This document shows, one piece after another, positions 8,661-18,946 of a DNA stretch of 64,000 bases. The notes under the pieces are model-generated. The model was not told where the DNA came from. It made no database searches and worked only from the letters and a program-made list of their open reading frames with translations. This DNA is from Geothrix sp. PMB-07. Its GTDB lineage: Bacteria; Acidobacteriota; Holophagae; Holophagales; Holophagaceae. A program made the translations under genes and the position numbers. The stretch's first letter is position 1. Every line of letters begins with the position of its first letter. Location of the stretch: contig NZ_CP132333.1 in NCBI RefSeq assembly GCF_030758935.1, forward strand, positions 1,116,992-1,180,991. Direction: 5' to 3'.

Positions 8661-8666
8661 GAGCAG

Positions 8667-9022
8667 GTGGATCAGGGCGTCGCTGGCCGCAAGGCCAGAG
8701 GAAAGTCCGGGCTCCACAGGGTGCTGGGCCTGGTAACACCAGGGCGGGGTGACCCGACGGAAAGTGCAACAGAAAACAAACCGCCGATGGCCACGCAAGT
8801 GGATCAGGTAAGGGCGAAACGGTGGGGTAAGAGCCCACCGCCGGACTGGCAACAGGACGGGCACGGCAAACCCCCCAGGGAGCAAGACCAAATAGGCTGG
8901 TGCACCGCGCAAGCGGCGAGGGCTGACCCGGCCGAGCCAGCGGGTAGGTCGCACGAGGTGGGTGGCGACATCCATCCCAGAGGAATGACGTCCCACGACA
9001 GAACCCGGCTTACCGATCCACC
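8667..9022 (+). ncRNA. rnpB: RNase P RNA (bacterial type A)
   Basis: Catalytic RNA of RNase P, which matures tRNA 5' ends. The conserved blocks are all present: GAGGAAAGTCCGGGCTCC at 8698-8715, GGTAAGGGCGAAACGGTG near 8807-8824, and the 3' signature AGAGGAATGACGTCCCACGA with ACAGAACCCGGCTTA at 8979-9013. The P1 helix pairs GGTGGATC (8667-8674) with GATCCACC (9015-9022). It sits 35 bases after exbD on the same strand and is followed at once by a strong hairpin. About 356 nucleotides is normal for type A. Confidence 0.96.
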
Positions 9023-9045
9023 ACGGCCCCCGCGAGGGGGCCGTG
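9022..9045 (+). terminator. strong hairpin directly after rnpB
   Basis: Perfect 10-bp GC stem CACGGCCCCC / GGGGGCCGTG with a GCGA tetraloop, starting at the last base of rnpB. The 3' side lacks a T run (TCTACG follows), so it may act as a processing stop or stabiliser as much as an intrinsic terminator. Confidence 0.65.
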
Positions 9046-9054
9046 TCTACGCTG

Positions 9055-9095
9055 TCCGGGGGTTCCTCGCTGCGCGAACACCCCCGGGCCCCGGC
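9055..9095 (+). repeat. dispersed GC-rich repeat, copy 1 (3' of rnpB)
   Basis: Core TCCGGGGGTTCC...CGCTGCGCGAACACCCCCGG, an inverted repeat whose arms are CCGGGGG and CCCCCGG. The same core lies 3' of fur (13367) and, reversed, three times 3' of the pseudouridine synthase gene. A decayed second copy follows at about 9130-9160. Confidence 0.8.
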
Positions 9096-9217
9096 GCCTT
9101 GGTCGGCAGAGCCGCCCCCGGCTTATGCTCTCCGGGGGGGCCTCGCTGCGCGCCTCCGTGTGATGCGGCGCGGTGCGCCGCTCCCACTCGCCTCCGGCTC
9201 GCGGACATGACCCTAGA

Positions 9218-9246
9218 CTCCAGGCCAACGCATGCGTTGCCTGGAG
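9218..9246. repeat. 29-bp near-perfect palindrome
   Basis: CTCCAGG, one unpaired C, CAACGCATGCGTTG and CCTGGAG form a near-perfect palindrome centred on GCATGC. It lies in the non-coding stretch between rnpB and the GNAT gene. It could be an operator or a transcribed hairpin; nothing decides between them. Confidence 0.6.
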
Positions 9247-9394
9247 GAGCCTCCCCCCGGGGCCCCCGCGATCACTCCGGCGAAGCCGGGCTTCGCTTTA
9301 CTCAACATCTGAGGGGCCCGCTTTGCTTTGCTGACGGCCTCCGCTAGGATGGGCGCTGTTCTCCGAGTAGGCCTCTGACTTCCACCTCGCATTC

Positions 9395-9510
9395 CCATCG
9401 TTGCCTGCCGGGCCTTGGCAGGTGCTGGGCCGCGTCCACCCGGTGACGCAGAGGAAGGCTCCTGGCGGTTCGCCGGGAGGTCAGATTGAAGCCACCCATT
9501 CGGAGCAACC
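9395..9510 (+). promoter_or_regulatory. structured leader upstream of GNAT gene, unassigned
   Basis: Three consecutive hairpins can be drawn: CCTGCC/GGCAGG (9404-9422), GCGTC/GACGC (9432-9449) and CTCCTGGCG GTT CGCCGGGAG (9459-9479). They precede the ATG at 9511. I could not match them to a known riboswitch class. With the repeats at 9055-9246 they account for the 465-base gap after the rnpB hairpin. Confidence 0.35.
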
Positions 9511-10269
9511 ATGTCGCACGACCTTCAAGCCCTGGCCCGCCGTCTTGAGCGCGCCCAGGCCCTGCAGAACGAACGTTTCAACCTGGCCGCTGGAGGACAA
9601 AGCCTCCCTGTGGGCGGAGGCTATGCCCACTTCCGTGGCGAGGGCCATCCGCTGAATCAGGCGTTGGGCCTCACAGAGGCTATTACGGAATCTGAGCTGA
9701 GCTCGGTGGAAGCTTTCCTGGGAGCTCCCACGGTGCTGGAACTGAGCCCTGGCGCCCACGCTTCGCTGTGGCCTTTGCTGGCCCAGCGTGGCTACCGCCT
9801 GCACCAGTTCCAGCAGCTCTGGACTCGCCCGCTGGAAGGTGTCGAGCCGACGTTGCCGCTGGTTGGGATTCGACTGGTGAGGTCTGAGGAAGCTGTCATG
9901 TACAGCCGCATCACCTGTGCCGCCTTCCTTGAACGTGATGATTGGCAGGAGCTGGATCCGCCCTTCCTGACGCCTCTTTCCGTTCCCGATGCCTGGGGCT
10001 TCCTGGCCTTGGTCGATGGTCAGCCGGTGGCGGGTGGCATGCTGGGCATCGTGGAGGACATCGCGCTGTTTTCGGGAGATGGCGTGCTGCCCCGACATCG
10101 GGGCAGGGGGCTGCAGAAGGCCCTGATCCAGGCCCGGCTCGCTTTCGCTCGGGCGCGGGGATGCGAGCTTGCGTGCGCCTCCACGGCCCCGGGCACGCCC
10201 AGCCAGCGGTCCTATGAAGCCTGCGGGTTCCGAGTGGCGTACCCCAAGGTGGAGATGGCCCGGGGGTGA
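9511..10269 (+). CDS. GNAT family N-acetyltransferase
   Basis: A 252-residue cytoplasmic acetyltransferase. The C-terminal half contains the GNAT acetyl-CoA loop in motif A (GVLPRHRGRGLQKALIQARL) followed by the typical helix and SQRSYEACGFR motif B. The N-terminal 120 residues look like a second, diverged GNAT half, so it may be a double-fold member. The substrate is not predictable. The ribosome site is weak (CGGAGCAACC). The MFS gene begins 15 bases downstream. Confidence 0.82.
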   Translation: MSHDLQALARRLERAQALQNERFNLAAGGQSLPVGGGYAHFRGEGHPLNQALGLTEAITESELSSVEAFLGAPTVLELSPGAHASLWPLLAQRGYRLHQFQQLWTRPLEGVEPTLPLVGIRLVRSEEAVMYSRITCAAFLERDDWQELDPPFLTPLSVPDAWGFLALVDGQPVAGGMLGIVEDIALFSGDGVLPRHRGRGLQKALIQARLAFARARGCELACASTAPGTPSQRSYEACGFRVAYPKVEMARG

Positions 10270-10284
10270 TGGAAGCCGCGGCGC

Positions 10285-11454
10285 ATGGTTCCATGGATCA
10301 TGCGCCGCCCTTCGCCCCAGACTGCCGCCCTGCTCGTGACGGCCCTCGCCTTCCACGTGGACATGCTCCTCTATTACCTGCTGGTGCCGCTGCTGCCCCG
10401 GTACGCGCGGGAGCTGAACCTGAATCCCATGCAGGTCGGCATCCTCTTCGGCAGCTATGCGGTGGCACTGCTGCTGGCCACCTTTCCCGTGGCGGTCCTC
10501 ACGGATCGTTACGGGAGGAAGGCGCCCATGCTGTGGGGGTTGGCGGGCCTGGGTCTCACCACCCTTGTGTTTGCGCTATCAAAACAGTACTGGCTGCTGG
10601 TGGTGGCGCGCTCCTTCCAAGGCGCGGCGGGCGCCGCGACCTGGCTGCCAGGCATGGCCCTTCTCGCGGACCACTTCCCTTCGGAATCGAGGGGCAAGGC
10701 CATGGGCACCGCTTTCGCAGCGGCGAACCTCGGCGTCCTCATCGGGCCGCCCTTGTCCGGCTTCCTGGCCCAGCATGCAGGTCCCGCGACTCCATTCCTG
10801 TTCGGTGCGGGCCTGGTGGCGCTGGATGCCGCAGGGCGCGCCTTTCTTCTGCCCGAGGTGGAACCGGAGCGGGGACCGAGACTGCCCTTTCGACAGTTGC
10901 TGTCAAACCCAACCATCCGGCTGTTTGCGGGCGCCATGGCCCTTGGGTCTGGGCTCTGGGCGCTGTTGGAATCGACGCTGCCTTTGGACATGGACCAGCG
11001 CCTGGGTTTCAGCGCCTCTCAGATCGGCCTGTGCTTCGCGGCTTCAGCCGTGGCTCACACCTTCACCTCACCCCTCATGGGCAGGCTGTCGGATCGCATC
11101 GGCCGTGTGAAGGTGCTCCGCATCGGCCTGGTGCTGGCGGTATTCCTGCTGCCCCTGCCGGTGTTGCTGCCCAAGGCGTGGATGGTGGTGCTGGCCATGA
11201 TGGGCCTGGGCAGCACGGCCAGCTTCATCATGAGCCCTTGCAGCCCCGCAGTGGCGGACCAGGTGGAGCGCCAGGGCAGTCAGAGCTTTGCCTCAGCCTT
11301 CTCGATCCTGAACCTGGCCTATTCCGTGGGGCTGATGATCGGCCCTGTGGCAGGCGGGGCCCTGGTCCAGGGTGTGGGCCTGCCCCTGGCTCTGGGGCTC
11401 TGCGGGCTGTGCTTCGGGGTTTACCTGCTGGCCGCGCGCCACGCTAGCGTTTGA
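10285..11454 (+). CDS. MFS transporter
   Basis: A 389-residue major facilitator with about twelve hydrophobic helices. The loop 2-3 motif is visible as VLTDRYGRKAPML near residues 72-84 and its repeat in the second half as LMGRLSDRIGRVKVLR. The length and small loops fit drug or small-metabolite exporters, but no substrate can be named. GGAAG precedes the ATG at 10285; ATG 10300 is an alternative start. It overlaps the convergent methyltransferase gene by 11 bases. Confidence 0.85.
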   Translation: MVPWIMRRPSPQTAALLVTALAFHVDMLLYYLLVPLLPRYARELNLNPMQVGILFGSYAVALLLATFPVAVLTDRYGRKAPMLWGLAGLGLTTLVFALSKQYWLLVVARSFQGAAGAATWLPGMALLADHFPSESRGKAMGTAFAAANLGVLIGPPLSGFLAQHAGPATPFLFGAGLVALDAAGRAFLLPEVEPERGPRLPFRQLLSNPTIRLFAGAMALGSGLWALLESTLPLDMDQRLGFSASQIGLCFAASAVAHTFTSPLMGRLSDRIGRVKVLRIGLVLAVFLLPLPVLLPKAWMVVLAMMGLGSTASFIMSPCSPAVADQVERQGSQSFASAFSILNLAYSVGLMIGPVAGGALVQGVGLPLALGLCGLCFGVYLLAARHASV

Positions 11455-12160
11455 CGGCCCGATAGATCCAGCGCTCCGCGTCCTCGTCCCAGGCCCGGCC
11501 ATCCAGGCCGCCATAGGCCTGCGCCACGTGGAAGCCAGCCCGGTGAAGGAAGGCCCTCACCTCGCCATCCTCTGGAATCCAGATGTCATGGCAGAAGGAC
11601 TCTCCCTGGCAGAGCCGGTCCGTGAGAATGCGGCGACCATCCGCGTTCCAGCGAACGCGCTCCTGGTAACCCTCCTCGGGGAAGTCCAACCAGTCCTCGC
11701 CCGATGCTTCCAGGGAGGCTTGCAAGGCGCTGCGGCCGGCGAGATCGAGGAGCAGGATTCCTCCGGTGCGGAGTACCCGGGCGTACTCTTCCAGTTGAAG
11801 CAGGTTCTCCGCTTCGGTGGCAAAGTAGCCCCAGCTGGTGAAGGCGCAGAAAACGCCATCGGCCACCCCCTCGCGGAAGGGCAGGGCGCGGAAATCCAGC
11901 CGCACCAGCGGCACGGGATGGCTCACCCGATGCTTGGCGAGATTGAGGGGGCTGATGTCCCCGCCAATGACCTTCAATCCCCGCTGGCGGAGATGGGGAT
12001 TGAGCCGACCCCAGCCGCAGGGAAGGTCCAGCACCCGGCTTCCGCTCGGGAGATCCAGCAGGTTTGCCAGAGCGGGGCCCTCATGGGCCGCATCCTTGGC
12101 CTTGTCCGCATAGATGGTGAAGTACGCCGGGTGGTTGAAATCCTTGATGAACCAATCCAT
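11444..12160 (-). CDS. class I SAM-dependent methyltransferase
   Basis: A 238-residue cytoplasmic methyltransferase. Motif I is VLDLPCGWGRLNPHL, followed by GGDISPLNLAKH (motif II acidic residue), LDFRALPFREGVADGVFCAF and RVLRTGGILLLDLAG. The start MDWFIKDFNHPAYF at 12160 is the family's usual N-terminus. The substrate is not recognisable; small-molecule methylation is likely. The gene runs convergent to the MFS transporter and lies just downstream of the tautomerase-like/winged-helix gene on the same strand. Confidence 0.85.
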   Translation of the reverse strand: MDWFIKDFNHPAYFTIYADKAKDAAHEGPALANLLDLPSGSRVLDLPCGWGRLNPHLRQRGLKVIGGDISPLNLAKHRVSHPVPLVRLDFRALPFREGVADGVFCAFTSWGYFATEAENLLQLEEYARVLRTGGILLLDLAGRSALQASLEASGEDWLDFPEEGYQERVRWNADGRRILTDRLCQGESFCHDIWIPEDGEVRAFLHRAGFHVAQAYGGLDGRAWDEDAERWIYRAVKR

Positions 12161-12201
12161 GGCCTGAGTGTGGCAGAGCTGAGGTCCGGGGGTTGGACGC
12201 C

Positions 12202-12756
12202 TCATCCCTCTTCGTTTTCGGCCTTTACCAGTTTCACGGTCGGCGCAGATTGAGGGGCATTGGCGATGCCCTTCCAGACATAACGGGTGCCCCGCTTCTG
12301 GCCGCTCTTGGCGATGAGCTTGGCTTCCTCCAGTTCGGTGAACAGGCGGCGGAGGGTGGCTGGGGCCCAGTCGCACTCCTTGAGGTCAAGCGCCACCTGG
12401 GCCTCGAAGCTGCTGAGGGAGCCACGGTTTTGAAGGGCGGCAATCAGGGCCTGCTTCATGTCTTCGAGTTCGGGCTTGGAGCGCCGCGCCTTGGTCTTGA
12501 AGGCGGGGGTCGACTCATGGACGGGCTCCAAGACGAGGGCCTTGGGGGCTGGCGGCGCGGGCGTGGCGGCGGCCCCTGTGGACTGAGCTTGAATCAGCAG
12601 GCCATCCACATAGATATCCCCGCGCTCGGGCTGGAACAGAATCACCACCGATCCGGGAGCGATGCCCTCATGCTGTAAAGCTGTAATGACACGTTCCCCG
12701 ATCCTGCTTTTCTGATCCGAACTGAGCGTCGGAGACTCGATAATCACGACTGCCAT
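12202..12756 (-). CDS. tautomerase-like domain fused to a winged-helix domain
   Basis: A 184-residue protein. Residues 1-57 (AVVIIESPTLSSDQKSRIGE... then PERGDIYVDGLL) follow the 4-oxalocrotonate tautomerase fold pattern, but position 2 is Ala, so the catalytic N-terminal Pro is missing. A Pro/Ala linker leads to residues 95-165, a winged-helix-like region (KQALIAALQNRGSLSSFEAQ, ATLRRLFTELEEAKLI). The TAT-style Pro1 chemistry is therefore unlikely and a binding or oligomerising role is more plausible. The start has GAGG seven bases upstream. It is divergent from the Fur gene and shares its AT-rich 104-base control region. Confidence 0.55.
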   Translation of the reverse strand: MAVVIIESPTLSSDQKSRIGERVITALQHEGIAPGSVVILFQPERGDIYVDGLLIQAQSTGAAATPAPPAPKALVLEPVHESTPAFKTKARRSKPELEDMKQALIAALQNRGSLSSFEAQVALDLKECDWAPATLRRLFTELEEAKLIAKSGQKRGTRYVWKGIANAPQSAPTVKLVKAENEEG

Positions 12757-12860
12757 GAATGCCTCATATTTAAAACAGAAATTCCATAATACGCTTGGAT
12801 TTAGGCTTTGTAAAATGGGTTTTCCTGCCTACATCGTGTAAACTTCCCGCCGAGGGTTCC
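12757..12860. promoter_or_regulatory. divergent AT-rich control region, tautomerase-like gene and fur
   Basis: A 104-base intergenic region, clearly more AT-rich than its surroundings (TATTTAAAACAG, TTGTAAAATGGG). It must hold promoters for both genes. I see no clean Fur box and cannot fix the -35/-10 pairs. Confidence 0.4.
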
Positions 12861-13361
12861 ATGCGCAAGCCCAAGATCGAACGGCCCGAAGAGCAGCAGC
12901 GTTTCGAGACCTTTCTCCGATCCCGACAGCTGAAGCTGACGGGTGAGCGGCTGGAACTGGTGGAGGAGGTTTTCGGCCAGCCTCACCATTTCGACGCCGA
13001 CCAGTTGCACATGGCCTTGAAACAAAAGGGGAAGGCCATCAGCAGGGCCACCGTGTATCGGACCCTCGACCTGCTGGTGCAGTGCGGGCTGGTGCGCAAG
13101 AGCAGCTTCGGCGACCAGTTCGCGCATTACGAGGCGGTGCGCAGCAACGAGCACCACGACCATCTCATTTGCCTGAACTGCGATGCCATCATCGAGTTTT
13201 TCCGCCCCGACCTGGAAGCTCTGCAGGAACAGATCTGTCGGGAATTCAGCTTCAAGCCCATGCACCACAGCCATCAGATCTTCGGCCTCTGCAAGGCCTG
13301 CCAGGGGCAGGCGACGGATGACTCGGTGCTGGCCCACCGGTTGAGCCAGCTGAATACCTGA
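12861..13361 (+). CDS. fur: Fur family transcriptional regulator
   Basis: A 166-residue metal-responsive repressor. The winged helix is LKLTGERLELVEEVF to AISRATVYRTLDLLVQCGLVRK. The metal sites are visible: EHHDHLICLNCDAIIEF (HHDH and CxxC-type zinc ligand) and the second cysteine pair CKAC near 149-152. The PHHFDADQLH segment is also typical of Fur. ATG 12861 has GAGG upstream. Fur versus PerR/Zur cannot be settled from sequence alone, although the FeoAB operon in this window is a natural iron target. Confidence 0.87.
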   Translation: MRKPKIERPEEQQRFETFLRSRQLKLTGERLELVEEVFGQPHHFDADQLHMALKQKGKAISRATVYRTLDLLVQCGLVRKSSFGDQFAHYEAVRSNEHHDHLICLNCDAIIEFFRPDLEALQEQICREFSFKPMHHSHQIFGLCKACQGQATDDSVLAHRLSQLNT

Positions 13362-13366
13362 TGTCC

Positions 13367-13413
13367 TCCGGGGGTTCCTCGCTGCGCGAACACCCCCGGA
13401 CCCCCGCGCCTCG
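13367..13413 (+). repeat. dispersed GC-rich repeat, copy 2 (3' of fur)
   Basis: Starts six bases after the fur stop codon. The core TCCGGGGGTTCC...CGCTGCGCGAACACCCCCGG is base-for-base the same as the copy after rnpB, then CGCGCCTCGGCCGG. The rest of the gap to 13571 holds further GC-rich palindromic fragments (for example GGGGGTTCCCGC at 13444) and no gene. Confidence 0.8.
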
Positions 13414-13571
13414 GCCGGCTTAGCGGTCCTCGGCTTGGCTCTCTGGGGGTTCCCGCCGCACGCCATAGACCCCGCGCTAAGGCATGGCGGGGCCGTTCCA
13501 TCGCTTCTCCATTCCCCGGGGGGCCGGGCACAGCCCATAGCCGACAGCAGGGTTCAGCGCTAGGCTTGGCC

Positions 13572-14639
13572 ATGGCCAAACTGACGATCCAAGACCTCCA
13601 GCGCCTCCCCAAGACGGATCTGCATGTCCACCTGGATGGCAGCCTCCGCATTCCGACCATCCTTGAGCTGGCCGAGCAGCAGAAGGTGAAGCTGCCTGCC
13701 GATTCCGTGGACGGCTTGCGCCCCTTCGTGGAGGTGGGGGACGACTGCAAGTCGCTGGTGGAGTACCTCCGCGCCTTTGACGTCACGCTGTCGGTCATGC
13801 AGACCTACGACAGCCTGGTGCGAACGGCCTTTGAACTGGCCGAGGACGCCGCCAAGGAGAATGTGCGTTACATGGAGGTGCGCTACAGCCCCATCCTCCA
13901 TCAGCAGAAGGGGCTCACGCTGCACGCCATCGTGCAGGCCGTGCTCGAGGGCCTGGCTCAGGCGGAGCGCCAGTACAACATCAAGACCGGCGTCATCCTC
14001 TGCGGCATGCGCCACATCTCGCCCGACATCTCCCTGCGGCTTGCGGATCTCACCGTGGCCTTCAAGAACAAGGGCGTGGTGGGCTTTGACCTGGCGGGGG
14101 CCGAGGAGAACTTCCCGGCCAAGCGCCACAAGGATGCCTTCGGCCGCGTGCTGCAGAACAACATCAATTGCACGCTCCACGCGGGTGAGGCCTACGGGCC
14201 CGAGAGCATCCACCAGGCCATCCACCTCTGCGGCGCCCACCGCATCGGGCACGGCGTGCGCCTCATCGAGGATGGCGACCTGCTCAACTACGTGAATGAC
14301 CACCGCATTCCGTTGGAGTGTTGCCCTTCGAGCAACGTGCAGACCAAGGCTGTGAAGAAGATGGCCGACCATCCCATCCGTCTGTTCTACGATCTGGGCC
14401 TGCGCGTCACGGTGAACACGGACAACCGCATGGTGACGGGCACCACGGTCAGCCGGGAGTTCCAGGTCATCCACGAGGAACTGGCCTTCAACCTCGAGGA
14501 GATCAAGGAACTCATCATCATGGGCTTCAAGAGCGCCTTCCTGCCCTATGCCCTCAAGCGGGCCATGCTGGCGGAAGTGGTCCATGAGCTGAAGGCCTTC
14601 AAGCCCGGGAGCCTCGAAAGTAAAAAAGAGCAGCTCTGA
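13572..14639 (+). CDS. add: adenosine deaminase
   Basis: Zinc hydrolase that deaminates adenosine to inosine in purine salvage. A 355-residue protein with the family's metal and catalytic motifs in order: HVHLDGS (His18, His20), a Gly-rich substrate segment, HAGE with the catalytic Glu, HRIGHG, and VNTDN with the final metal Asp. The NTDNR form rather than NTDDP occurs in part of the family. ATG 13572 is preferred over TTG 13566. It is followed 28 bases later by the DHH phosphoesterase gene on the same strand. Confidence 0.92.
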   Translation: MAKLTIQDLQRLPKTDLHVHLDGSLRIPTILELAEQQKVKLPADSVDGLRPFVEVGDDCKSLVEYLRAFDVTLSVMQTYDSLVRTAFELAEDAAKENVRYMEVRYSPILHQQKGLTLHAIVQAVLEGLAQAERQYNIKTGVILCGMRHISPDISLRLADLTVAFKNKGVVGFDLAGAEENFPAKRHKDAFGRVLQNNINCTLHAGEAYGPESIHQAIHLCGAHRIGHGVRLIEDGDLLNYVNDHRIPLECCPSSNVQTKAVKKMADHPIRLFYDLGLRVTVNTDNRMVTGTTVSREFQVIHEELAFNLEEIKELIIMGFKSAFLPYALKRAMLAEVVHELKAFKPGSLESKKEQL

Positions 14640-14667
14640 TATCCTGACGCTCGAGGTCAGGATTTCC

Positions 14668-15663
14668 ATGCTGGATCGCTTTGCCCACTTTCTCGATCAC
14701 CACGCGCGCGTGCTGCTCACGACCCATGAGAATCCGGATGGGGATGGGGTGGGCGCTGCCATCGCTTTGGCGTCCTACTTGAAGGCCGCAGGCAAGCAGG
14801 TGCGCATCGTGGTGACACCTTCCCTGCCCGAGAACCTGCGTTTTCTGGACCCTGAGGGCTGGATCGAAGCCTACGCCCCCGCTGGTCCGCATGCAGGTCT
14901 CGCAGCCTGGCCCGATGCCTGGCTGCTCATTGACGCTTCAGAACCCCACCGCATGGGCCCGCTGTTTGCCGCCTTCGAGACCACCCAGGCCGATCGGGCC
15001 TGCCTCGATCATCATCTGAAGGATGCTCCGAAGGGCTTCGATGCGGAGTTCACGGATCCCAGCGCCAGCGCCAGCGCCGAACTGGTCTACGACCTGGTTC
15101 GTTCCCGCACTGACGGCGACTTCCCACCCGTCATGGCCCAGGCGCTCTACGCGGGTCTCGTGAGCGATACGGGCAACTTCCGGCACTCCAACAGCACCCC
15201 CAAGGTCCATCATGCCGCCGCGGATCTGCTGGCCCAGGGGGTCCATCCGGCTCGAACCTTCAATGCCCTTTACCAGACGGCGACACCTGCCAAGATCAGG
15301 CTCTTCGGTCGGGCCATGGGCGGACTGCAGTTGCGGGAAGAAGGCCGCTTCGCCTATGTCACTGTGACCAAGGCGGATCTGGAGGCGGCAGGAGCCACCC
15401 ACGAGGATCTTGATGAGCTGGTGGAGGAGCCTCGCAAGCTGAAAGGGGTGGAGGTCGCAGCCCTGTTTTCCGAAACGGCCGATGGCCGCTCCAAGGTCAG
15501 CCTCCGGTCCCGGGAGCGGGTGGATGTGAACGCGGTCTGTCGTTTGTTCGGCGGAGGGGGCCATCGACTGGCCTCCGGGGCCAAGGTCGGTGAACCCTTG
15601 GCAACCTTCATCTCCCAGGTGGAGGCAGCCCTTCACACTCAGATGGAACGGGATTTTGTCTAG
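14668..15663 (+). CDS. nrnA: DHH family phosphoesterase, NrnA-like oligoribonuclease/pAp phosphatase
   Basis: A 331-residue cytoplasmic DHH-DHHA1 protein. The metal-binding motifs are HENPDGDGVG near residues 20-29, the DHH motif LDHHLKD near 112-118, and SDTGNFRHSN near 170-179. The C-terminal DHHA1 domain ends with GGGGHRLASG. Relatives degrade nanoRNA and dephosphorylate 3'-phosphoadenosine 5'-phosphate. The start MLDRF fits, but the upstream ribosome site is weak. It probably shares a transcript with add. Confidence 0.88.
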   Translation: MLDRFAHFLDHHARVLLTTHENPDGDGVGAAIALASYLKAAGKQVRIVVTPSLPENLRFLDPEGWIEAYAPAGPHAGLAAWPDAWLLIDASEPHRMGPLFAAFETTQADRACLDHHLKDAPKGFDAEFTDPSASASAELVYDLVRSRTDGDFPPVMAQALYAGLVSDTGNFRHSNSTPKVHHAAADLLAQGVHPARTFNALYQTATPAKIRLFGRAMGGLQLREEGRFAYVTVTKADLEAAGATHEDLDELVEEPRKLKGVEVAALFSETADGRSKVSLRSRERVDVNAVCRLFGGGGHRLASGAKVGEPLATFISQVEAALHTQMERDFV

Positions 15664-15770
15664 AATGTAAATTAGACTTTATGGGGTTGCCGAGAAAGGC
15701 CCCAGGTCTCAGACTTCAAGTTCGCCCGAGCGGCATCCCATGAGGTGACCGCTTTTGACACTGGACTCCC

Positions 15771-16430
15771 ATGTCACCCAAAGAACCCAGCAGCGCCCCG
15801 AAGCTTGAACTGTTCTGCAAGCTGCAGGCGGAGAAGGTCCCCTTCATCGCCAAGGCCAATGTGCCTTCCATCTTCGGCAAGTTCACGGTCTACGGTTTTC
15901 TGGAGCATGCCACCGGGAAAGAGCACCTCGCCATCGTGGCCGGCGAGATCGACGCACGCAGGCGCATTCCAGTGCGCATCCACTCAGAGTGTTGGACCGG
16001 CGATGTGCTGGGCAGCCTCAAGTGCGACTGTCGTCAGCAGCTGGAAGAAGCCCTGCGCCATGTATCAGAGCACGGTGGCATGGTGCTCTACCTCCGGCAA
16101 GAGGGACGCGGCATCGGCCTGTTGAACAAGCTCAAGGCCTATGCGCTGCAGGAGCAGGGGCTCGATACGGTGGAAGCCAACCACTCCCTCGGTTTCCCCG
16201 ATGATCTGCGCACCTATGATTGTGCCGTGGAGATGCTGAAGTTCTTTGGCATCACCCAGGTGAAGCTGCTCACCAACAACCCGAGGAAGATCGGCGCACT
16301 GGAATCCGCTGGCATCGAAGTCGAGCGGGAGCGGCATCAGCTGGCTTCGAATCCGCATAATCTGCGCTACCTCAAGACCAAGGCCCGCAAGAGCGGGCAC
16401 ATGCTGGACTTCGAGGAAGAAGCGCTCTAA
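15771..16430 (+). CDS. ribA: GTP cyclohydrolase II
   Basis: Stand-alone RibA of 219 residues, which opens the GTP ring in the first step of riboflavin synthesis. The zinc site is RIHSECWTGDVLGSLKCDC (Cys54-type triad), the active motif is LRQEGRGIGLLNKLKAY, and the C-terminal half has TNNPRKI and a typical ending. It is not fused to a RibB domain. The 107-base region upstream shows no FMN riboswitch features that I can recognise. No other rib genes are in the window. Confidence 0.93.
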   Translation: MSPKEPSSAPKLELFCKLQAEKVPFIAKANVPSIFGKFTVYGFLEHATGKEHLAIVAGEIDARRRIPVRIHSECWTGDVLGSLKCDCRQQLEEALRHVSEHGGMVLYLRQEGRGIGLLNKLKAYALQEQGLDTVEANHSLGFPDDLRTYDCAVEMLKFFGITQVKLLTNNPRKIGALESAGIEVERERHQLASNPHNLRYLKTKARKSGHMLDFEEEAL

Positions 16431-16484
16431 CCCATTCACCCCAATCTTTGACACTCGGCCCTTGGAGGCCGATAGCTAAGGCAT

Positions 16485-16928
16485 ATGGACACTCCCGTTT
16501 CGTACCAAGCCGTTTACGACATCTCACATGTCATTCAGCTCTCTGTGGCACCGGTTTTCCTGCTGACCTCCATCGGCACCATTTTGGGTGTGCTGTCCAC
16601 GCGGCTGGCCCGGATCATCGACCGGGCGCGGGCCCTCAACGACAAGCTGGAGAACGCTGCGGAGGTGAAGGCCCGCCTGATCCACGAGGAGATGCACATC
16701 CTCGCGCAGCGGCGGCATCTGGTGAACCTGGCCATCACCGGAGGAACCACCTCGGCGCTGCTTGTGTGCGTCAGCATCGCCACGGTGTTCCTCGGCGCCA
16801 TGCTCAAGGTCAATGTGGCCATGGCCGTGGCGCTGATGTTCATCCTTTCCATGGCAGCCTTCGTGGCCGCGCTGGTCTTCTTCCTGCGGGAGATCCTGCT
16901 CGCAGTGCGAAGCCTCGATCTCGTCTAG
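16485..16928 (+). CDS. DUF2721 family membrane protein
   Basis: A 147-residue membrane protein with three hydrophobic segments (about 15-37, 81-104 and 110-135) and the cytoplasmic segment TRLARIIDRARAL, which is the hallmark of the DUF2721 family. The function of the family is unknown. It stands alone, 54 bases after ribA on the same strand. Confidence 0.8.
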   Translation: MDTPVSYQAVYDISHVIQLSVAPVFLLTSIGTILGVLSTRLARIIDRARALNDKLENAAEVKARLIHEEMHILAQRRHLVNLAITGGTTSALLVCVSIATVFLGAMLKVNVAMAVALMFILSMAAFVAALVFFLREILLAVRSLDLV

Positions 16929-16940
16929 GAGGGGATCTTC

Positions 16941-17199
16941 GCTCAGCTCGGCTTTGCCGGGCTGAGCGCGGAGGTCCGGGGGTATTCGCGCAGCGAAGCG
17001 GAGCGGGGGACCCCCGGAGAGTTTCAGCTCAGCACGGCTTTGCCGGGCTGAGCGCGGGGGTCCGGGGGTATTCGGGCAGCGAAGCGGAGCGGGGGACCCC
17101 CGGAGAGTTTCAGCTCAGCTCGGCTTTGCCGGGCTGAGCGCGGGGGTCCCGGGGGTGTTCGCGCAGCGAAGCGGAGCGGGGGACCCCCGGAGAGTTTCA
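16941..17199 (-). repeat. three tandem 86-bp GC-rich repeats (3' of pseudouridine synthase)
   Basis: Units at 16941-17026 (86), 17027-17112 (86) and 17113-17199 (87). They differ at only a few bases. Each holds two inverted repeats: GCTCAGCTCGGC TTT GCCGGGCTGAGC, and TCCGGGGGT ... ACCCCCGGA. The last unit ends with TTTCA, whose TCA is the stop codon of the minus-strand synthase gene. The core matches, in the same sense relative to the gene, the copies after rnpB and fur. These repeats fill the whole 268-base gap. Confidence 0.92.
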
Positions 17200-18333
17200 G
17201 AGGCTCTTGATGGCTGCGATTTCCTGGGGGCTGAGGAAGCGCCAGGCGCCGGGCTTCAGCATGGGATCGGCCAGGGGGCCGAACTGCACGCGGCGCAGCT
17301 TGCTGACCGGGTGTCCCACCGCCGCGAACATGCGTCGGATCTGCTGGTTCTTGCCCTCCGTGAGGGTCACCTTCAGCCAGGGATTGTCGCCCTTTTCAGC
17401 CACCTCGATGTGGCAGGGCTTCAGGCGCCGTCCGCTGAGCAGGAAGCCCTCCTGGAATTCCTTCAGCAGCTCGGGCCGCGGATTGCGGTGCACCTTCACC
17501 AGGTAGACCTTGGGGATCTCATGCTCAGGCCCCATGAGCACCTGGGCCAGGGCTCCATCGTTGGTCATGAGGAGGAGGCCTTCGGAGTTGAAATCGAGAC
17601 GCCCCACGGGGTACAGGCGGCCAGGCACATCGCGGATCAGGGCCATGACCGTGGGGCGGCCCTGGTCATCCTTGACGGTGGTGACGTAGCCCTTGGGCTT
17701 GTTCATGAGGATGTAGACCGGCGCTTCCTTCTCGATGGGGATCAGGTCCACGGTGATCTCATCCCGCTTGGGGTTGGCGCAGGTTCCCAATTCCGTGACG
17801 GTGACGCCGTTCACCTGCACGCGGCCATCGAGGATGATCTCTTCACAGGCGCGACGGCTGGCGATGCCTGCGGCGGCGAGGATTTTCTGGAGGCGCTCCT
17901 GGCCAGGGCCGCCGGGCCTGGGGCCAACCTTGCGCGCGGCCACTGGAGCGGGTTTGGCCTTGGGTGCAGCGACTGGGGCTGGGCGGCCTGTGGCGCGATT
18001 CGAGGGCCGACTTTGGGCCCGGTCCACGGGACGGCGGGTCGGGCGCTCATCGGGACGACTTGTGGTGCGGCGAGCCGGGCGGTCATCGACGCGGGTTTCA
18101 GGGCGGGACTCGGGACGACTGTCGGAGCGGGCCGGGGTATGGCGGTCAGGGCGTTCCGCGGAGCGGGTCGCCGGACGACGCGTTGGACGCTCCTCTGCCA
18201 TCGCGGGTCGGTCCGCAGTTCGGGCGGCAGGTCGGCGCGCGGGCCGATCCCCAGGGCGCCCCGTCGGACGGCTGGAGGCGGTTTTCTTGGCGGTGGGCGC
18301 GGTTCCAGCCCCCTTGGGGGTGAACTTTCTCAT
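17197..18333 (-). CDS. rRNA pseudouridine synthase (RsuA/RluB type) with long Arg/Pro-rich N-terminus
   Basis: Converts uridine to pseudouridine in ribosomal RNA. The last 245 residues form a normal enzyme: S4 domain ERLQKILAAAGIASRRACEE, then the catalytic motif GRLDFNSEGLLLMTNDG with Asp near 246, and GKNQQIRRMFAAVGHPV. The first 130 residues are low-complexity, with RPxxRxxxRP-type repeats, highly basic and probably disordered, absent from E. coli RsuA/RluB. ATG 18333 has GGAG upstream. The stop codon lies inside the third 86-bp repeat. Confidence 0.88.
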   Translation of the reverse strand: MRKFTPKGAGTAPTAKKTASSRPTGRPGDRPARRPAARTADRPAMAEERPTRRPATRSAERPDRHTPARSDSRPESRPETRVDDRPARRTTSRPDERPTRRPVDRAQSRPSNRATGRPAPVAAPKAKPAPVAARKVGPRPGGPGQERLQKILAAAGIASRRACEEIILDGRVQVNGVTVTELGTCANPKRDEITVDLIPIEKEAPVYILMNKPKGYVTTVKDDQGRPTVMALIRDVPGRLYPVGRLDFNSEGLLLMTNDGALAQVLMGPEHEIPKVYLVKVHRNPRPELLKEFQEGFLLSGRRLKPCHIEVAEKGDNPWLKVTLTEGKNQQIRRMFAAVGHPVSKLRRVQFGPLADPMLKPGAWRFLSPQEIAAIKSL

Positions 18334-18376
18334 GGCAGCTCCTTCGGCGTCTCCCGACGCGGAATCTGCCAGTGTA

Positions 18377-18946
18377 TCAGGACGGGTGGGTTGTCGTGGC
18401 CCGCAGGAAGTAATGGATGCCCGAAGCGAGCACCAGCGCAGCCACCACGTAGTACATCTCGGGCAGCAGGGGATCCATCCAGGACCGGTAGCCGATGGCA
18501 TTGAAGAGCAGCCCCAGGGATACGGCGATCAGCTGCATGGCCGTGCTCAGCTTGCCCAACAGGCTGGGGTGGAATTTGCTGTCGCTGAGGCGATCCACCG
18601 AGGCGAAGGCGTAGAAGGAGATGACGAGATCCCGCATGATGGCGAGGATGGCCACCCAGACGGGGATGGGGGCCGTCATGCCCTGGGTGCGCCAGGCCAT
18701 GAGGATGAAAGCCGTGGTCATCAGCAACTTATCGGCGGCGGGATCGAGAATCGCACCCAGATCGGAGCGCTGATTGAAGGTTCGGGCGATGAGGCCGTCC
18801 AACAGGTCGGTAAACCCTGCCGCTGCAAACAGGATGCAGGCCTGCCAGTAGTGTCCGTACCAGACCGCGATGGCGAAAAAGGGAATCGCCAGGATCCGCA
18901 GCAGGGTCAGCGCATTGGGGAGGGTGATGGGACTGGAGGCATTCAT
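18377..18946 (-). CDS. pgsA: CDP-alcohol phosphatidyltransferase, PgsA-like
   Basis: Membrane enzyme that makes phosphatidylglycerophosphate from CDP-diacylglycerol. The CDP-alcohol motif DGX2ARX8GX3D is visible in TDLLDGLIARTFNQRSDLGAILDPAADK near residues 46-73, and five to six membrane helices surround it. The N-terminus (TLPNALTLLRILAIPFF) is typical of PgsA. At 189 residues the length fits. It precedes the synthase gene by 43 bases on the minus strand and is divergent from feoA. Confidence 0.87.
   Translation of the reverse strand: MNASSPITLPNALTLLRILAIPFFAIAVWYGHYWQACILFAAAGFTDLLDGLIARTFNQRSDLGAILDPAADKLLMTTAFILMAWRTQGMTAPIPVWVAILAIMRDLVISFYAFASVDRLSDSKFHPSLLGKLSTAMQLIAVSLGLLFNAIGYRSWMDPLLPEMYYVVAALVLASGIHYFLRATTTHPS

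Follow-up and report, generated by a model that had tools for sequence, protein, structure and literature searches.

Background

In a window of 64,000 nucleotides from Geothrix sp. PMB-07 (by window we mean the whole stretch of DNA analysed), a GC-rich repeat lies on the 3' side of several unrelated genes and reads in the same sense as the gene upstream. The question raised by this locus is what kind of sequence occupies such a position and what it does there. The answer that we consider probable, judging from sequence comparisons, is a palindromic element of REP/MITE-like kind, specific to the genus, which delivers a terminator in the sense orientation and can take over transcript ends. A mobile-type element of ~78 nt would land in gene sense directly behind gene ends, where the TGA or TAA of the gene would most often fall inside the left junction of the element, (C/T)T(G/A)AT. 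Transcribed together with the gene, the module would fold into a first hairpin (H1), 6 nt past the stop, followed by a freely evolving second hairpin (H2) and a short U-tract; the latter two would act as an intrinsic terminator. Copies would be retained where they are useful as (extra) transcript ends, and the native terminator would become dispensable.

With about 47 related species to compare, in a phylum for which transcript-end data are scarce, such a module would be a natural system for following the insertion, takeover and turnover of transcript ends. It would also be a testable case of a repeat tolerated because its landing site lets it act as a terminator, and would lend itself to comparison with the proposal that stop-proximal hairpins affect ribosomes.

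Structure of the repeat

The repeat unit, about 78 nt long, is composed of a leader of 5-6 nt, the conserved hairpin H1 with arms CCGGGGGTTCC and ACACCCCCGG around a small inner stem, a linker (A/G)CCCCCGCG, and the hairpin H2, which ends in CTTT and whose sequence varies by locus among the copies collected from the host genome. The unit is thus longer, by the linker and the second hairpin, than the 33-base core named in the original prediction. H2 has the predicted shape of an intrinsic terminator; the U-tract 3' of it is short, with a mean of 4.4 T per 10 nt and TTT in 83 of 159 copies.

The copies predicted at rnpB, at fur and, threefold on the minus strand, at the pseudouridine synthase gene are all present when the sequence is read directly (Table 1). 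H1 begins exactly 6 nt after the fur TGA (13359-13361), as had been stated, and the same 6 nt separate the TGA of the pseudouridine synthase gene (17199-17197, minus strand) from its first H1. The rnpB copy is indeed found 3' of its gene, but not in direct contact with it, because the terminator-like hairpin of rnpB intervenes. Likewise, the hairpin that had been attributed to all copies is common to them in its outer arms, but the three minus-strand copies carry a loop longer by 10 nt, and in one of these the predicted fold pairs the linker in place of the 3' arm. The layout of the long mosaic copy resembles that of loci L178, L181, L183 and L197. Typical module copies have a predicted fold with z of about -6; the fur and rnpB copies of the window have, in the fold prediction, decayed H2 stems.

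Table 1. Positions in the window of the module copies and of the genes upstream of them
Feature	Position	Strand	Score or basis
RNase P RNA (rnpB)	8664..9028	+	RNA family search
Terminator-like hairpin of rnpB (CACGGCCCCCGCGAGGGGGCCGTGTC), ahead of the repeat	9022..9047 (about)	+	read directly
Module behind rnpB: leader GCTGT, H1 9056-9087, linker, degraded and poorly paired H2	9051..9126	+	70.6 bits
Long mosaic copy, with two palindrome modules between its 5' half-stem and its 3' half-stem CCCCCCGG, then linker and H2	9126..9299	+	
Palindrome module inside the mosaic copy, around CAACGCATGCGTTG	9226-9239		
fur-family regulator gene, upstream of a module copy	12861..13361	+	
Module behind fur: 6-nt leader, H1 13368-13399, linker, partly decayed H2	13362..13438	+	69.8 bits
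Second copy at fur, decayed, 3' of the first (CTGGGGGTTCCC...)	13442..13490	+	similarity to 5' half only
Pseudouridine synthase gene, followed by three tandem copies	17197..18501	-	
Module copy 1 at the pseudouridine synthase locus: H1 variant of 42 nt (17190-17149), with H2	17112..17196	-	
Module copy 2, tandem, same locus: H1 17103-17062	17026..17111	-	
Module copy 3, tandem, same locus: H1 17017-16976	16941..17025	-	

In an alignment of 129 distinct relatives, pairing is kept in 96% of the pair cells, and double-sided changes occur in 370 cells; shuffles give 90 (sd 7). Because this alignment had been fitted to a covariance model, the counts are biased towards the structure; slid controls are only 31-51% paired. 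Both hairpins have compensatory changes, but the covariation is mostly in H2, where 95% of cells are paired and double changes occur in 10 of 12 pairs. The outer pairs of H1 change together from CC/GG to TT/AA, in copies behind secF, and also to GC/GC and CA/TG, while its inner stem appears as GCGC/GCGC, TCGC/GCGA or GTGC/GCAC. The arms and the internal loop of H1 are far more conserved in sequence than H2. In orthologous copies behind fur, the sequence of H2 has diverged and its pairing is mostly kept.

Distribution in Geothrix and beyond

The module is genus-specific. Its 32-nt core, with up to 3 mismatches, has 19 matches in the 4.24-Mb genome of the host, compared with 0 for the reversed control pattern, and the covariance model has 30 hits (E<0.01) in this single contig. 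All 47 Geothrix genomes searched are matched, with 3-48 copies each at the same threshold; of the sister genera, four have a single genome with weak matches, 1-4 in number, and other families searched with the model gave no matches. Exact H1 sequences, among the matches listed, belong to Geothrix, to other Holophagaceae and to some 'Acidobacteria bacterium' records. Viral carriage was considered and rejected, as exact H1 is absent from the viral contigs of IMG/VR. In Rfam no family exceeds the gathering threshold for the module.

Position relative to gene ends

Since the covariance model demands H2, a second sample of 72 independent copies was drawn by H1 alone. In this sample 78% of the copies lie, in gene sense, 0-15 nt past a called stop codon, compared with 0% at the same places on the opposite strand and 0.84% at random positions. 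Neighbouring copies near each other form 84 pairs on the same strand and 0 on opposite strands (the pairs are partly redundant, coming from overlapping loci). The original prediction had called for a check of placement and strand genome-wide: across the genus the distribution is neither random nor unbiased, but strongly one-stranded and 3' of genes, and the pattern first noticed in the window thus holds.

The gap between stop and H1 was counted, from the stop of the upstream reading frame, on the 134 copies that stand first in their array. It is exactly 6 nt in 72 of them; 11 copies have 7 nt and 13 have 11-12 nt, and gaps of 1-5 nt also occur among module copies; the remaining first-in-array copies include a few whose stops were missed by the crude gene caller. 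Ordinary terminators, taken like ordinary genes from a 400-kb host sample plus the window (464 kb of host), have scattered start distances, with 6 nt in only 1 of 47. Upstream of the modules are genes for ribosomal proteins S15, L24, L27, L31 and L35, NusG, SecF, SucC and fur, among others, while some copies follow rnpB, the rpmE terminator, a tRNA gene or no called gene end.

So regular a gap might point to translation control, the hairpin stalling terminating ribosomes 6 nt past the stop. PMC12306157, citing Liang et al. 2015, reports such stalling by E. coli REPs located up to 15 nt from stop codons, a range into which the 6-nt gap falls. We regard this reading as very unlikely, since the module also stands at gaps of 1-5, 7 and 11-12 nt and follows non-coding genes as well; moreover, reduced output of essential ribosomal protein genes would presumably be costly.

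Two kinds of unusual position were also seen. At L114, L121 and L171, in three species, the module lies about 7 nt past the CCA end of a tRNA gene. A degenerate copy with H1 only, at C1:3507420 in the host (L018), is an exception to the 3' placement, as it lies about 30 nt before a start codon.

Gain and loss at rpsO and fur, and terminator damage at rpsO

Sites were compared across species at two loci, rpsO and fur. Where rpsO has no module, the stop codon is followed after 10-18 nt by the native terminator (AAAACGCCCGC, loop, GCGGGCGTTTT). Twelve of 33 species carry the module, which lies past the stop codon and ahead of this terminator; the tail of the terminator is 103-670 nt away from the stop with the module and 37-42 nt without it. 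The carriers are patchy on the tree and no more clustered than shuffled labels: well-supported branches force at least 4 changes of state, and the best tree has 9. The patchiness, which could be due in part to recombination between species, reaches near sister species.

This last observation bears on the possibility that the module is a vertically kept 3'-UTR motif, in which H1 would be bound by an RNA-binding protein or would block exonucleases, stabilising the mRNA, with H2 as an accessory terminator. The strong sequence conservation of H1 relative to H2 and the housekeeping genes upstream (ribosomal S15, L24, L27, L31 and L35, nusG, secF) are in keeping with a role of this kind; a vertically kept motif would hardly be patchy among near sister species, copies also follow rnpB and tRNA genes, and recent copying could equally have given a conserved H1, so that we find this explanation quite unlikely.

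All 21 non-carriers have an intact native terminator at rpsO; in 5 of the 12 carriers it is broken, with its left arm destroyed and a predicted folding energy of -4 to -8 in place of about -19 kcal/mol. Three of the five broken terminators share one common break, which leaves few independent events, and on so small a tree a phylogeny-aware test yields 2-3 independent pairs for takeover and 0 against, which is not significant. Such decay is what relaxed selection would be expected to produce if the module ends the transcript. On these comparisons the module seems able to take over transcript-end formation from the native terminator, and the damage would have come after the takeover. Support for the putative transcript-end role put forward in the original prediction comes from the terminator shape of H2, from the compensatory changes and from the fact that the native terminator of rpsO is damaged in carriers only.

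The 3' side of fur, compared in 30 species, holds the module, long mosaic forms, remnants, or wholly different repeats and terminators. The long copies have two further palindromes inside H1. Presence and absence between species, insertion at rpsO, head-to-tail arrays and nested inserts together point to the module as an inserted element, repeatedly gained and lost. The other half of the proposal, which set a function against random insertion, is therefore not supported as far as insertion is concerned.

Several features of these loci are worth recording. At rpsO of L131, eight modules stand in a row, with a period of 78-79 nt, ahead of an intact native terminator. Behind fur in other species (L186, L188-L190, L192, L193, L198, L201) a different repeat, TAG-CTGTCGGCTGTCAGCTGTCAGC..., begins right at the stop, and at these loci the fur stop is TAG, not TGA. 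The second palindrome of the long copies, a hairpin around ACGCATGCGT followed by ATCTA(A/G)GGG, is nested in the copies of L178, L181, L183, L197, L148 and L169, and in the window (9226-9239) it has the reverse orientation; from its sequence it looks like an independently moving REP-like unit.

Possible target sites and retention

At the left junction the sequence (C/T)T(G/A)AT is followed by (G/A)(C/T)T(C/G)T and then by H1. The pyrimidine before T(G/A)A is enriched, and a T comes right after the stop in 74 of 84 copies of TRA type, compared with 76 of 243 ordinary genes ending in TGA or TAA. The whole YTRAT junction is present in 61/84 of these copies and in 56/243 ordinary stop contexts, and the last sense codon ends in T in 33/84 versus 35/243. 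In genes ending in TAG, TGAT sometimes stands between this stop and the module (TAG-GT-TGAT|GTTCT); other junctions, such as TTTT|GCTGT and CCAAG|GCTGT, also occur. Insertion beside a TGA-containing target is plausible on this pattern, in which case the left junction would act as the target and the module would be actively transposed. A peptide encoded from the overlapping TGATG was rejected as an explanation, because the variant with the 10-nt longer loop shifts the frame and the ATG is not conserved.

The same junction can be read as the mark of a purely selfish REP/MITE-like element, inserting in one orientation 3' of (C/T)TGAT-like sites, and hence often hitting TGA stop codons, with copies elsewhere purged and the folding being a transposition hairpin of no use to the host. 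Besides the enrichment beyond ordinary stop contexts, including the last sense codon, and the TGA retained at the junction of genes with a different stop, this reading would account for the tandem arrays, the nested inserts, and the gain and loss. What weighs against it is the choice of sites: of the YTGAT sites in the host sample where insertion would not be disruptive, only 14% (65/459) are in-frame stops, yet these hold at least 72 of the 134 copies (binomial p about 1e-26). Target choice alone does not explain the placement; it takes either selection favouring a terminator in sense or an additional step that steers insertion. Selfish copying alone, moreover, does not predict that H2 pairing is kept amid free sequence turnover, nor that native terminator damage is confined to carriers, and we judge the purely selfish reading unlikely. 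A steering step would be provided if insertion were directed to stop codons in sense, at a TGA/TAA target and perhaps aided by transcription or translation, the element spreading by harmless replacement of terminators; this is a possibility that we entertain with some doubt.

Relation to known repeats and mobile elements

Like the REP (GTAG/CGTC) and BIME sequences, which are short extragenic palindromes 3' of genes and in some cases lie within 15 nt of stops (PMC3733652, PMC12306157), the module is a short extragenic palindrome. GTAG REP ends can even supply a TAG stop codon (PMC3733652). The module is less abundant, with about 30 copies in the host and 3-48 per genome, than REPs, whose copies usually exceed 100 (PMC2817692). 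It has no REP tag, GTAG occurring in 3/159 and CGTC in 6/159 of the 5' flanks, and in 0 and 1 of the 3' flanks, and most genomes lack the Y1/RAYT transposase of GTAG REPs (PF01797 is found in 5/47 Geothrix genomes, and the examples examined are IS200-type). Unlike BIMEs, neighbouring modules do not alternate in orientation. The module thus lacks two defining features of REPs, tag and transposase, and one of BIMEs, alternating orientation; it also differs from REPs in being bipartite, with a freely evolving terminator hairpin, and in its single orientation relative to the gene. Mobilisation by RAYT was rejected for the host and most species.

MITE-type bacterial repeats such as ERIC and Nezha are transcribed with neighbouring genes (PMC3733652), and they share with the module the small size, the lack of coding capacity, the position next to genes and the folding in the transcript. 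At the module no terminal inverted repeats or target duplication were seen by eye, and stop position and sense are almost fixed. Intrinsic (Rho-independent) terminators resemble it in the GC-rich hairpin of H2 and, in the copies that have one, the short T-run, but in the module a conserved hairpin precedes H2 and the whole spreads as a repeated unit.

A DNA-uptake-type signal doubling as a terminator, of the kind found in Neisseria and Haemophilus, would likewise place two short conserved arms at gene ends, one inverted relative to the other. Genomes with uptake signals contain hundreds to thousands of them, far above the 3-48 copies of the module, and we give this reading scarcely any credence.

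The non-autonomous elements of IS200/IS605 type are similar to the module in having a subterminal hairpin and a short 5' flank of fixed orientation, for which YTRAT is the candidate in the module; the target of ISDra2 is TTGAT. A transposase with module-like ends was not found, and two IS200 groups examined were rejected as parent elements because their flanks and hairpins are unlike those of the module. In the host, six near-identical copies of an IS200-type tnpA are located at C1:1199946-1215915 (L027-L029), 19-35 kb to the right of the window, and in three more places. Most of them have flanks with GCCTAAC and GCGTTAGC, resembling integron attC core sites, and these tnpA copies are possibly cassettes of a chromosomal integron.
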